From Cohaesibacter marisflavi (GTDB taxonomy: Bacteria; Pseudomonadota; Alphaproteobacteria; Rhizobiales; Cohaesibacteraceae), in contig NZ_FOVR01000003.1 of the NCBI RefSeq assembly GCF_900115225.1, positions 374,017 through 438,016 of the forward strand: a stretch of 64,000 nt of DNA, written 5' to 3'. This document shows, piece after piece, positions 11,758 through 31,151 of the stretch (position 1 is the first letter of the stretch; each line of letters opens with the position of its first letter). The notes beneath the pieces are model-generated. The model did no database searches. It saw nothing but the letters and a program-made list of their open reading frames with translations, and was not told the DNA's origin. Both the position numbers and the translations under genes were made by a program.

Positions 11758-12717
11758 TCATTCGCAAAGAGCGCGGGCGCCATTGTTCCCAAGATCGACC
11801 ATGATGGATTGAAGATTGGCACCCAACTGCTCAGGCTCGATCCATTTGCCGCCTGTGGCCTTGGCAACGCAGGCAAGGGCGTCGCCTCCACCAAGGGACA
11901 CCACATCAATCTCCACTTCCGGATGCGATCGTGCCACGGCGCATGGATCACCACCATTTGTATCTTTGCCATCACTCACCAGAATGATGCGTCCCCCACC
12001 CTTTTTCTGTACTTTTCGAAGCGCCAACTTCAACGCCTTGGCCACGGCCGTGGAGGACTTCAGCTTCAATCCGTTGGTTTTCGCGATAAGGCCTGAGCGC
12101 TCTGCTGGACCGAAGTCTCCCAGATCCCTCACAAAAGAGCGACCAGCGAATGATACAACACCAATCTCCGTCTTTTTATCAGTCTGGCGAGCGACCTGTT
12201 CAACGGCGCTTTTCAGATCATCAAGACGCTTGCGACCGGGCTTCTTTATCAGACCGGCATAAATAACTTGTGCCGTTTTGCCTGAAAGCCCACCAGCCCC
12301 CATGCGCTTTTCCAGCTTCGTGGCCAGTGCGCTATCAACATCAGCAGGCAGGCCCATACTGATTGAATGATCAAGCGCAAGAACAATATAGCTGCGATCT
12401 TCGGGACGGGCGCAGTGCTTTGAAGGGGATTCTGGCGCTTCGGGTTCAGGTGGAGGCGCCTTCGCGACCGGCATCTCTGGCGGCGGCGGAGGACAGGCCT
12501 TCTCTTGTTCACCGGCCATTTGCATCAGCATGTGCAACTGGTCCTGAAGCGCGTTGAGCCTTGCGAGATCTGGTGCGGCCTCAGCTGAGCACCAGCTCCA
12601 TTGATAGCCCCAAATCCTGACGCCACAAGACTTCAGCGACAGATGGCCCAGATAGCCCAGCAGCGCGATAAAAATCAGCCACAAGAGCACAAATCCGATC
12701 AGACGCAGAGCTCTCAT
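11758..12717 (-). CDS. Membrane-anchored VWA protein 2 of the Srf/Tag-like operon
   Basis: The 319-residue protein has one N-terminal transmembrane helix (about 7-28). A short cysteine-bearing segment (C31, C43) and a leucine-rich coil ending at C75 follow. Then comes a proline-rich linker (76-100) and a VWA domain with an intact metal-ion site D-H-S-I-S at D116. The rest should be periplasmic, though topology is not certain. C31, C43 and C75 fall at exactly the same residue numbers as in the VWA protein encoded just upstream, so the two are duplicates differing mainly in linker length. It is the last gene of the 13-gene operon, with its ATG overlapping the previous stop (TGATG). VWA domains usually bind protein partners. 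No specific function is recognised. Confidence 0.85.
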   Translation of the reverse strand: MRALRLIGFVLLWLIFIALLGYLGHLSLKSCGVRIWGYQWSWCSAEAAPDLARLNALQDQLHMLMQMAGEQEKACPPPPPEMPVAKAPPPEPEAPESPSKHCARPEDRSYIVLALDHSISMGLPADVDSALATKLEKRMGAGGLSGKTAQVIYAGLIKKPGRKRLDDLKSAVEQVARQTDKKTEIGVVSFAGRSFVRDLGDFGPAERSGLIAKTNGLKLKSSTAVAKALKLALRKVQKKGGGRIILVSDGKDTNGGDPCAVARSHPEVEIDVVSLGGGDALACVAKATGGKWIEPEQLGANLQSIMVDLGNNGARALCE

Positions 12718-29195: not shown

Positions 29196-31151
29196 TCACG
29201 ACCCTGCCTGCTCGTTTGCTGATGCCAACGGACAAGGCGCGCTCGCAGTTGTTGCCTCGACACCATTCTGGGAGAGGAAATCGAGCAAGCTATCACTCTT
29301 GAGCGCAAAGTTGAGGCGCAATTGGGCTTCATCGCTGGTCTTGATGAAGGTATTGACCCCGACAACACTACCGCATGCATCCACCAGCGGTCCGCCGCTG
29401 TTGCCCGGCGAAATATCGGCGCTATGGAGCACCAGCTTCAGGCCTGACGGACTGTCCTGAAAGACCGTCACGATGCCTTGTGTCAACACCATGCTCGGCG
29501 CGGCATGGGCATCGCCTGCAAGCAACTCGCGGAATTTGGCGTCTGTTTCCATGAAAAAGCCCGGGAAGCCTGCCGCGTAGGTCTGCTGTCCCTTGCCGAT
29601 GGTGCGGGTAAGCTGCAAATAGCGATTAGCAGGCGTTCCTTCCATCGCAAGCAGCGCATAATCCTTGTCGCCCAATTCACTTGTGCTGCTGGTGGCCACG
29701 ACATTTGCCTTGCGCACGTCCCCCAAGGTTTCATTGATCACGAAGACCTGTCCGCCCTCGGCTGTTTCTATGACATGGCGGTTGGTGACGATCTGATTGG
29801 GCGCAATCAGGAAGCCGCTCCCGCTGCTCACCTGCCCCTTGGCACCAGTCGCCAGAACGAGCACAGTCGCCTGATCAAGCAGCGGCACCAGATCCGTTGG
29901 CGATTGCGCCGCAACAGGGCCTGTTGGGGTAGCGACGGGCCGATCAGTACCTTCAGCCCCAGAGCCCCCTTGCAGCAAAGCGCCGTCCGGGCCCAGCAGT
30001 CCCGGCGCGGCAACGCAGCGCCTTTGCGAAAGCTGGCTGCGCAAATCGGCGATGCGGGTGCGCAACGCCTGTTCGGATTGTCGGATTGTCGATTGGGAGA
30101 GAAGAGAAGCGGAATAAGAGCCGTAAGGGTAGATCAGAACACCGGGGATGAGAGCGATCAACAAGAGAAGCAGCGACACGATGCAGGCAATCAGAACCGG
30201 CACCCAGCAGATCCGGCCCCGAGGCTGGTCCTGTTCGCCTCGTCTGCCGCCGGGAAAATCTCCTCCCCTGCCGCCATAGGCACCTGCCGCGCTGGCCGTA
30301 GCTCCGGCCGCTCCGGTCTCCGCGCCATCGGAGGCAAAATTCACGTCGGACCGCTTGAGCTTCAGCGGATCAATAGCGGCAGCCCCTTCCACCCCTTCAC
30401 TCTGATAGGAGGCATGGGCCGCTTCGAAGCCTTCAGCCGTAGAGCTATCTGATGACACAGCATCTCCAAGAGAGGCTACCGCAGCGGCTGCACCCGCACC
30501 GGCAACCACGCCAGCTCCGGCTGTCAAACCAGCCGCGGCTCCACTTAAAGATGGCTGATCGCGTTCCTCATCAGCATCCGATGGGCTTTCGGCAACGTCC
30601 AGCATCAATTGCGCAAAATCAGTCAGATCATAGTTTTCAGGCAGAAACTGGCCAACGCCATGCAACAGGTGATGCGCCATTCGATCTGCACTGGACACCA
30701 CACCTGCAGGCACTATGCCCCAATTGGTGATGACCGGCTGGCCATTGATAACGAGCATGTCTGCATCAAAGGACAGGATATTGAGCCAACCCAATATCAT
30801 CCGGGCCTGCGGATCATCGAAGCGATGAATGCGGTTGAGCAGATCGCTCAAAAAGCCGCGCAACATGGCCGCAACACGCACTTTTCCGGTTTGGTCGAGG
30901 CTCTCCCAAACCTGCATCTGGCCGACATCGTCGCCATACCACGCCACAGTCAGAAGAGTATCATCTCCATCTCTCTTGACCGCCGGAGATGCAAACAGTC
31001 TTACATAGCGCGGCATGTGAGCCGCCAGATAGTCCAGCCCCTCATCATAGGTGTCCAGAATCGGCGTGCCCTGAAATCTGATTTCTTCTTCGCTGCTGTA
31101 TCTGTTGCTTTTTAGGAAGGTGTGCTGCCCACTCACGGAATTCGCCCCCAC
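29196..31151 (-). CDS. Membrane-anchored trypsin-like serine protease with SrfA-like N-domain
   Basis: This 651-residue protein opens the operon. The N-terminal domain (about 30-155, ending NGQPVITNWGIVP) resembles that of SrfA. An Ala/Gly-rich linker leads to a transmembrane helix (316-342) and a coil ending at C379. A trypsin-like domain (about 425-630) has an intact triad: H459 (TNRHVIE), D497 (DKDYALL) and S585 (GNSGGP). A late Cys pair (C593 and near the C-terminus) may form a disulfide. The protease should face the periplasm. The annotated start is GTG at 31151; an in-frame GTG five codons later has a better GGGGG site. Targets are unknown; regulated proteolysis of an operon partner is one possibility. 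Confidence 0.85.
   Translation of the reverse strand: MGANSVSGQHTFLKSNRYSSEEEIRFQGTPILDTYDEGLDYLAAHMPRYVRLFASPAVKRDGDDTLLTVAWYGDDVGQMQVWESLDQTGKVRVAAMLRGFLSDLLNRIHRFDDPQARMILGWLNILSFDADMLVINGQPVITNWGIVPAGVVSSADRMAHHLLHGVGQFLPENYDLTDFAQLMLDVAESPSDADEERDQPSLSGAAAGLTAGAGVVAGAGAAAAVASLGDAVSSDSSTAEGFEAAHASYQSEGVEGAAAIDPLKLKRSDVNFASDGAETGAAGATASAAGAYGGRGGDFPGGRRGEQDQPRGRICWVPVLIACIVSLLLLLIALIPGVLIYPYGSYSASLLSQSTIRQSEQALRTRIADLRSQLSQRRCVAAPGLLGPDGALLQGGSGAEGTDRPVATPTGPVAAQSPTDLVPLLDQATVLVLATGAKGQVSSGSGFLIAPNQIVTNRHVIETAEGGQVFVINETLGDVRKANVVATSSTSELGDKDYALLAMEGTPANRYLQLTRTIGKGQQTYAAGFPGFFMETDAKFRELLAGDAHAAPSMVLTQGIVTVFQDSPSGLKLVLHSADISPGNSGGPLVDACGSVVGVNTFIKTSDEAQLRLNFALKSDSLLDFLSQNGVEATTASAPCPLASANEQAGS

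Follow-up and report, generated by a model that had tools for sequence, protein, structure and literature searches.

The window, the whole stretch of DNA that was analysed, is 64 kb long (374017-438016 of the 500-kb contig C27). Between its positions 11758 and 31151 lie thirteen tightly packed open reading frames (ORFs), all on the minus strand, listed here from the protease gene to the last VWA gene.

29196..31151, minus strand: bitopic serine protease, with an SrfA-like N-terminal domain (~32-146), a transmembrane (TM) segment (317-335) and a trypsin domain with His/Asp/Ser motifs
27929..29194, minus strand: SrfA, 421 aa, with an N-terminal domain, a TM segment, a Cys-bearing stalk and a C-terminal head
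24802..27909, minus strand: SrfB, 1035 aa, with an N-terminal part and a predicted Hsp70-like ATPase
22054..24789, minus strand: SrfC, 911 aa, a predicted dynamin-like GTPase
20789..21997, minus strand: bitopic 402-aa protein with one TM segment (209-227), found by profile matches
18884..20770, minus strand: kinase-less PpkA homologue, 628 aa, with a hydrophobic start, a VWA domain with a MIDAS-type motif and a conserved C-terminal domain
18150..18887, minus strand: TagT homologue, ABC ATPase (ABC_tran E 6.4e-23; TagT profile matches)
16963..18153, minus strand: TagS homologue, FtsX/LolC-type permease (TagS profile matches; LolC E 7.6e-10)
15378..16973, minus strand: TagR homologue, FGE fold (FGE-sulfatase E 4.3e-33; TagR profile matches)
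14636..15343, minus strand: TagQ homologue, a 235-aa lipoprotein with a glycine zipper (lipobox LAGC; iterated profile)
14192..14608, minus strand: second small lipoprotein, 138 aa (lipobox LAAC; genus orthologues)
12717..14180, minus strand: VWA protein, 487 aa, with SrfA-type TM segment and stalk (VWA_2 E 1.9e-7; stalk profile; hhalign)
11758..12717, minus strand: VWA protein, 319 aa, paralogous to and in tandem with the 487-aa VWA protein (VWA_2 E 4e-7)

In the same order, the twelve junctions measure +1, +19, +12, +56, +18, -4, -4, -11, +34, +27, +11 and -1 bp. These values assume that SrfA starts at the conserved ATG (27929-29194, 421 aa), as placed by genus orthologues; the 483-aa SrfA ORF begins inside the protease gene. 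An earlier reading made from the sequence only had described thirteen leftward genes with small gaps or overlaps, which the ORF coordinates and junctions confirm. Pfam/NCBIfam models matched trypsin (75 bits), SrfB (852 bits, cut-off 27.1), SrfC/Virul_Fac (712 bits, cut-off 28.1), ABC (82 bits), FGE (115 bits) and VWA in the PpkA homologue (30 bits) and the two small VWA proteins (32 and 31 bits); glycine-zipper matches in the TagQ homologue were below cut-off. The 402-aa gene adjoins srfC in all loci with the TagQRST-PpkA-like block (hereafter the cassette) except Bacteroidota L058, where it had no match. The 138-aa lipoprotein was found in the genus, and a profile search gave no match in other loci. 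Scanning the window for Rfam families and for tRNA genes gave nothing informative, and no tRNA.

Four of the seven other carriers in the genus (L112, L113, L116, L117) keep all thirteen genes as open ORFs. In L118 all thirteen stretches are present, with a short protease ORF (371 aa) and the last VWA gene split over two frames, and in L114 and L115 a single VWA gene stands in place of the last two. Since the ORFs are kept in genus carriers and dN/dS to the window genes is 0.02-0.29 where computable, the operon genes are real and under purifying selection. The distribution is patchy, with srfB in 8 of 18 genus genomes. A comparison with empty sites through the flanking MFS gene was uninformative: this gene is shared by only 4 of the 7 other carriers (75-95% identity), and non-carriers hold only paralogues of at most 44% identity.

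Several of the envelope proteins appear to be built from shared parts. SrfA matches the SrfA_fam model (E 5e-21, 75.6 bits, below NCBI's 150-bit cut-off) and other SrfA proteins by hhalign (prob 99.7). The protease matches Trypsin_2 (E 1.2e-20) and also SrfA_fam (E 4.6e-4), its N-terminal domain aligns with SrfA by hhalign (prob 82.6 and 95.9), and its TNRH, DYA and GNSGGP motifs are kept in 7 genus rows. A stalk profile of the 487-aa VWA protein finds SrfA of the genus and did not find SrfA of other genera; hhalign also links this protein to SrfA (prob 95.9, E 6.2e-9). Judged from these alignments, the protease has the N-terminal domain of SrfA and the VWA proteins have its membrane stalk. 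The protease and the 487-aa VWA protein share no stalk (hhalign prob 0.5), and a profile of the first 300 protease residues, from which L118 was excluded for its short ORF, gave no match at E 1e-3 in other loci. In Bacteroidota L058 an SrfA part is joined to a subtilase, and a VWA protein lies near srfB.

The cassette was compared with the loci of type VI secretion systems (T6SS) using profiles made from Srf-linked genes only. Near full-length matches in the same gene order and direction were obtained in 6/6 T6SS-linked loci for TagR (292-304 bits), TagS (312-337 bits) and TagT (231-253 bits), following the order tssM-tagF-pppA-ppkA-tagT-tagS-tagR-tagQ. In the same six loci the profile of the PpkA homologue matches T6SS PpkA with 594-617 bits, from profile positions 18-28 to 656 of 656. 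For TagQ, iterating a profile built on the 235-aa lipoprotein brought in the tagR-adjacent ORF of all six loci, with final scores inflated by the inclusion of the T6SS ORFs themselves. No Pfam model matches the permease above cut-off, but its profile matches LolC/LolE/MacB/FtsX chains. By these measures the likeness to TagQRST-PpkA, proposed by the sequence-only reading, is true homology, which for PpkA covers the periplasmic half only. The label "PpkA-like" thus fits the VWA/C-terminal half and not the kinase domain, which Pfam did not find in the window protein. Pkinase matches occur in 4 of the 20 rows of the PpkA-homologue alignment, which holds four T6SS-linked rows; ORFs of those four match the T6SS kinase of the window genome (L099 was checked singly). 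The Pkinase-matching rows are therefore probably the T6SS-linked ones, with the Srf-linked rows having no kinase match.

In a sample of 398 genomes of the phylum, the cassette directly follows srfB, srfC and the 402-aa gene in 7 of 21 srfB genomes, and G114 is an additional case with a contig break inside the 402-aa gene. A TagS-like permease is present in 8/21 srfB genomes versus 7/377 others (Fisher p 7e-8, relatedness ignored). The TagS profile is bimodal across the 398 genomes, with 15 below E 1e-47 and the next best at only 1.9e-14. This, together with the colinear homology and the conserved linkage to srfB-srfC, led us to reject a match to generic ABC, FGE and VWA families only. The block accompanies srfB-srfC in several classes, Desulfovibrio also being among its carriers; srfA was not detected in L041-L043 and L061. 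L065 (62-residue match) and L044 (weak match) were dropped as not SrfB, L047, whose contig ends in srfC, was left out of the cassette counts and the SrfB tree, and L057 was left out of that tree. Methylococcus, Vreelandella and an uncultured Rhodopila, all environmental bacteria, are among the carriers.

None of the thirteen genes matches pppA, tagF, tssM or fha (Pfam/NCBIfam). That there are no type VI secretion genes, as first read, holds for the operon and not for the genome, which has a T6SS on another contig: tssC lies on C34, and there is none on C27. Of the 23 cassette genomes tested, 14 have no tssC, including 5 of 8 in the genus of the window, so that the cassette is not tied to a T6SS. 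On these grounds, membership of the block in an adjoining T6SS was rejected. Five other genus carriers have no T6SS; of two relatives that have one, G400 carries it on the srfB contig at a distance of ~44 kb, and G410 has it 3.66 Mb away by linear coordinate. Three further cassette genomes with tssC (L048, L050, L060) gave no T6SS match inside the fetched loci. In the concatenated cassette tree, made with no outgroup and leaving out L043 (near-identical to L042), the T6SS rows form one clade (100/100), split from all Srf rows with support 40/63, and in the TagS tree two Srf rows group beside T6SS rows (81/84). Either the Srf-linked or the T6SS-linked cassette may have come first.

Structure models predict an Hsp70-type ATPase fold with phosphate motifs for SrfB, and a dynamin-type GTPase domain with neck-like helices for SrfC. 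Neither protein has a TM segment by hydropathy. For SrfB, Pfam at E <= 0.1 returned the SrfB family only and a profile search of the PDB gave no match at E <= 1; a PDB sequence search for the VWA protein was also without result. On the models, SrfB resembles an ATPase and SrfC a GTPase. The sequence-only reading had coupled such activities to VWA sensors and a protease; the predicted folds and motifs favour the ATPase/GTPase part, while the coupling, like any output, is a proposal.

The Hsp70-like and dynamin-like motifs are kept in cassette loci, with the G1 motif of SrfC present in 17/17 rows and G3 in the 16/16 that cover it. The motifs of L047, missed by the pattern search, were read from the alignment, which does not cover its G3. 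Among 20 cassette-less rows, G1 or G3 is lost in 13 and kept in 7 (lost in 12/19 when L057 is set aside, its SrfB and that of L038 being identical). We did not accept this association as proof that SrfC decays with cassette loss: 7 of the 20 cassette-less rows are intact, all losses fall in named enterobacteria or family f50, and there are 3 independent pairs. The enterobacterial SrfC proteins have 710-820 aa. Since the cassette is absent from the 15 enterobacterial rows beside L037 and 12 of these have lost the GTPase motifs, the cassette-less enterobacterial srfABC, of Salmonella type, looks by sequence comparison like a derived remnant.

The conserved thirteen-gene set suggests that SrfABC belongs to a stand-alone envelope machine. 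A T6SS-independent machine responding to envelope stress is our preferred reading, at somewhat less than an even chance, with the outer role taken by analogy and the inner folds from models. TagQRST-PpkA of Pseudomonas aeruginosa is needed for the response to outer-membrane damage, according to PMC11881912. By analogy with this H1-T6SS role, TagQ, TagR, the kinase-less PpkA-type VWA protein and the LolCD-like TagS/TagT transporter would sense such damage. The kinase would be replaced by the bitopic SrfA, the 402-aa protein, SrfB and SrfC as partners. Upon damage, the periplasmic module may recruit or license SrfB and SrfC at the affected spot of the inner membrane, where SrfC would remodel or reseal the membrane and SrfB would drive its assembly or disassembly. 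The SrfA-family heads (trypsin protease and VWA domains) may act in the periplasm. We regard as possible, though less likely than not, the broader view that the sensor exists in two wirings, one kinase-fused and firing a T6SS, the other kinase-less and joined to an Hsp70-dynamin pair (SrfB-SrfC) for repair or remodelling of the inner membrane where damage occurs, with enterobacterial SrfABC as the leftover after sensor loss.

A conflict system, in which the sensor detects attack by phage or a competitor's weapon and defence falls to the protease and to the dynamin-like and Hsp70-like parts, is unlikely. Its patchy occurrence in the genus and the protease and dynamin-like parts would fit, and the parent sensor answers T6SS attack (PMC11881912). 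However, in a PADLOC scan of 10 of the 13 proteins it was the protease domain that matched defence proteins with a protease, RT-Protease_XI scoring best (E 3.8e-15); two of the others gave weak matches (E 0.004 and 0.01) and the rest none. Signs of a mobile island are also few, given the lack of tRNA in the window and the MFS neighbour kept in four carriers.

That TagS/TagT form a LolCDE-style transporter of lipoproteins or peptides, powered or gated by SrfABC, seems quite unlikely. According to PMC6657622, deletion of tagS or tagT in P. aeruginosa only reduced TssK assembly, which deletion of tagQ or tagR abolished, although TagT was required for the responses to polymyxin B and counter-attack. 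The operon has two lipoprotein genes, the TagS profile matches LolC/LolE and the best NCBIfam match of TagT is LolD (E 7.5e-32), but at 110.6 bits this is far below the curated cut-off of 307.75.

SrfABC as a set of toxins or effectors whose release is triggered by the cassette is very unlikely, given two proteins that have no TM segment and model as Hsp70-like and dynamin-like, and the environmental carriers named above. Cytotoxicity of Xenorhabdus stockiae SrfABC to insect and mammalian cells is nevertheless reported (PMC6950479), and export of SrfC was suggested in PMC3608642. Least probable of all is regulation of the cell's T6SS in trans, with the operon supplying the VWA half that its 452-aa PpkA kinase lacks. 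In its favour, that T6SS has, besides TagF, FHA and a PP2C phosphatase, a kinase that shows no VWA match, none of the 13 window proteins matches an ORF in the 40 kb of C34 that was compared, and the G400 T6SS is near srfB. Against it, most cassette genomes, those of the genus included, have no tssC, and PpkA is said to be constitutively active where TagQRST is absent (PMC12607579).

SrfABC has so far been called a virulence factor with no mechanism attached. Should SrfB prove to be an Hsp70-like ATPase and SrfC a dynamin in a damage-sensing envelope machine, as preferred here, the question could be tested by standard assays. The data also suggest that the TagQRST sensor is a portable module and not a T6SS part as such. 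They offer an evolutionary reason for the difficulty of reading the enterobacterial operon, the sensor being gone there and the GTPase site mostly gone too.

The combination itself is not new, since srfABC-tagQRST-ppkA has been in print since 2013: Campbell et al. (PMC3608642) describe in host-associated Deltaproteobacteria a neighbourhood of ten genes (srfA-C, tagQ-T, ppkA, ligA and a Hap-like gene), with T6SS machinery in only one genome. There PpkA is treated as a kinase, whereas no Srf-linked row here appears to match one; the window adds a further lipoprotein gene and two further VWA genes, and this analysis the shared SrfA parts, the folds and a wider phylogeny. The Desulfovibrio locus L047 has a trypsin-domain gene before srfA, perhaps the Hap-like gene. 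For Xenorhabdus, PMC6950479 hints at an srfABC and TagQRST-type neighbourhood. In the open-access literature, srfABC with PpkA gave two papers, PMC3608642 being one, and SrfC with dynamin, SrfB with von Willebrand and T6SS, the Srf family accessions and, among the matches listed, SrfB with Hsp70 were not found; nor were the missing kinase, the folds, the SrfA modules and the loss history found in print.

Compared with BDLP, IniA, SynDLP and the DLP pair, SrfC is alike in predicted fold and GTPase motifs at ~11-13% identity; unlike these known bacterial dynamin-like proteins it is partnered with an Hsp70-like protein, and its membrane action is putative. A likeness to TssR of the Bacteroidota T6SS is seen in TssR_VWA matches in 2 of 20 rows (alignment A7) and in the VWA protein near srfB in L058, whose genome, in contrast, has no tssC match. 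Enterobacterial srfABC, in Salmonella and others, keeps the gene order seen here. The H1-T6SS shares TagQ, TagR, TagS, TagT and, of PpkA, the periplasmic half with its VWA and C-terminal domains with the window, in the same order and direction; the operon of the window has no kinase domain, pppA, tagF, tssM or fha, and srfA, srfB, srfC and the 402-aa gene take the upstream place.

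The operon at 11758-31151 comprises 13 minus-strand genes, as the sequence-only reading had described, in which adjacent genes overlap by up to 11 bp or are separated by up to 56 bp when SrfA is begun at the conserved ATG. Family scans identified a trypsin-type protease, an SrfA-family protein, SrfB, SrfC and an unnamed 402-aa protein in the upstream part, and a VWA protein, an ABC ATPase, an FGE protein, two small proteins and two VWA proteins in the downstream part; the permease is FtsX/LolC-like by profile. The two small proteins gave no family match above the cut-off in these scans, and both carry lipoboxes. 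The gene order is srfA-srfB-srfC-402aa-VWA-tagT-tagS-tagR-tagQ, of which the last five genes constitute the cassette. The five flanking genes scanned encode an enolase-superfamily enzyme, a glucose/sorbosone dehydrogenase, an MFS transporter, a Gfo/Idh-type oxidoreductase and an AraC-type regulator.

Within the genus, srfB is found in 8 of 18 genomes, including that of the window (5.34 Mb), and all 13 genes are open ORFs in four of the seven other carriers. In L118 (genome G398) all 13 stretches are kept, but the protease ORF is short and the last VWA gene is broken across two frames, through either decay or sequencing error. The terminal VWA genes (11758-14180) look like a tandem duplication, since loci L114 and L115 have one gene in place of the two. 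The operon is under selection; dN/dS values of the genus carriers against the window are 0.02-0.29 where computable.

Across a phylum sample of 398 genomes, srfB exceeded the cut-off in 21, eight of which have a TagS-like permease. The cassette directly follows srfB-srfC-402aa in seven of these eight, with a detectable srfA ahead in four (the window, L030, L033 and L037) and no detectable srfA next to this block in three family-f16 genomes (L041, L042 and L043); the eighth, G114, has a contig break inside the 402-aa gene (L039, L101). The permease was also found in 7 of the 377 genomes without srfB over the cut-off, namely six T6SS-linked genomes and G014, where neither srfB over the cut-off nor tssC was found. 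The G014 locus (L100) presents a third cassette context, VWA-TagT-TagS-TagR-TagQ followed by an ORF that matched no family and a gene for an S41 peptidase, and a gene with weak alpha-2-macroglobulin-like matches lies close by.

Twenty named loci were taken, and with L065 dropped and L047 not counted, 18 were left. The cassette, or its visible part, was present in eight of the 18, and no cassette gene was found in nine. The full set of VWA, TagT, TagS and TagR was seen at five of them (L048-L051 and L060); L063 lacked a TagR hit but had the other three, L061 had two, and L059, cut off by the end of its contig, had one. Upstream of srfB in L061 (Anaerobiospirillum, 25-7821) lie four consecutive ORFs of like size (620-649 aa), one of the two scanned giving a weak ankyrin-repeat match. 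L064, from a Planctomycetota MAG, encodes SrfB together with a weakly matching SrfC. Proteins with a single TM segment, one of which resembles SrfA weakly, lie between these two and after them, and the locus has no cassette. In the Bacteroidota locus L058, srfB and srfC come with an ABC ATPase and a permease-like protein of 1+3 TM segments, as well as with one VWA protein of the TssR type and another ORF that the VWA profile hit. A second Bacteroidota locus with srfB and srfC, one of two matches in 296 sampled genomes, encodes a protein 37% identical to the L058 subtilase; no cassette was found at this locus.

As to INDEPENDENCE of T6SS, tssC was absent from 14 of the 23 cassette-bearing genomes searched: 4 of 8 in the set that includes the window's genome (tssC present), 5 of 8 in the set where L058 is counted, whose genomes are of uncertain completeness, and 5 of 7 genus relatives. 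On contig C34 of the window's own genome, the T6SS has tssB and tssC as separate genes and also a sheath fusion (L027:2190-5273), a 1027-aa protein whose TssB domain spans residues 57-206 and whose TssC domain spans 621-897. The genus relatives G400, G401 and G410 show a comparable second TssC match, lying in an open frame of roughly 1000 aa.

Parts of SrfA recur in its neighbours. Its N-terminal domain is also found at the head of the protease (hhalign probability 82.6 with genus SrfA and 95.9 with other SrfA), and its TM segment and Cys-bearing stalk in the VWA proteins (95.9). The stalk profile matched all eight genus SrfA rows at E values of 3e-6 to 1.5e-3, the next match among 4327 sequences being at 0.2. 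In L058 an SrfA-like domain is fused to a subtilase in place of the trypsin-type protease, and the presence of different proteases on the same SrfA module suggests that proteolysis belongs to the system.

In the midpoint-rooted SrfB tree, the 15 enterobacterial rows that lack the cassette fall into one supported group, which sits next to the cassette-bearing L037 and within the other cassette rows. Given this nesting, the simpler reading is that the cassette was lost in the enterobacterial group. SrfC is 710-820 aa long in this group, and 12 of the 15 rows have lost its GTPase motifs; as the group is a single clade, this does not count as independent evidence. The motifs are kept in every cassette row that covers them. 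The SrfB ATPase motifs are recognisable in all rows.

In P. aeruginosa, the outer-membrane damage response requires the TagQRST-PpkA pathway, according to PMC11881912. PMC6657622 describes TagQ and TagR as essential for TssK assembly, TagS/TagT as modulating it, and TagT as required for the polymyxin B response. The Srf-linked cassette may sense a signal related to outer-membrane damage, with SrfB and SrfC standing in, as we infer, for the kinase-T6SS output; the action of SrfC at the membrane is a guess drawn from its dynamin-like model. The combination of srfABC and cassette is already known from two reports: PMC3608642 describes a ten-gene neighbourhood in host-associated Deltaproteobacteria, just one of which had T6SS machinery, and proposes PpkA as a possible trigger of SrfC export, and PMC6950479 notes that genes for post-translational control of T6SS lie close to srfABC in X. 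stockiae.

The likeness to TagQRST-PpkA proposed from the sequence proved to be real homology. Profiles built from six Srf-linked loci only matched PpkA (594-617 bits), TagT (231-253), TagS (312-337) and TagR (292-304) over nearly their full length in six T6SS loci (L096-L099, L102 and L103), all of family f45, which we take to be Pseudomonadaceae. Iterating a profile of the 235-aa lipoprotein brought in the T6SS TagQ ORFs beside tagR. The order tssM-tagF-pppA-ppkA-tagT-tagS-tagR-tagQ is shared by all six loci, and in the six T6SS-linked genomes tagS and tssC are no more than about 17 kb apart. The PpkA-like label of the sequence-only reading holds for the periplasmic half of the window VWA protein but not for the kinase, for which the family scan gave no match. 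Among 20 aligned relatives of this protein a kinase domain was matched in four; exactly four rows are T6SS-linked, the only ones of at least 990 residues (L099 was checked singly), and we infer that these are the four kinase-bearing rows. Since the kinase is missing from the Srf-linked gene, the PpkA label given to such a gene in PMC3608642 also fits only the periplasmic half. In the T6SS of the window's own genome (G000, contig C34, L026:8912-10270), PpkA is a kinase of 452 aa in which no VWA was matched.
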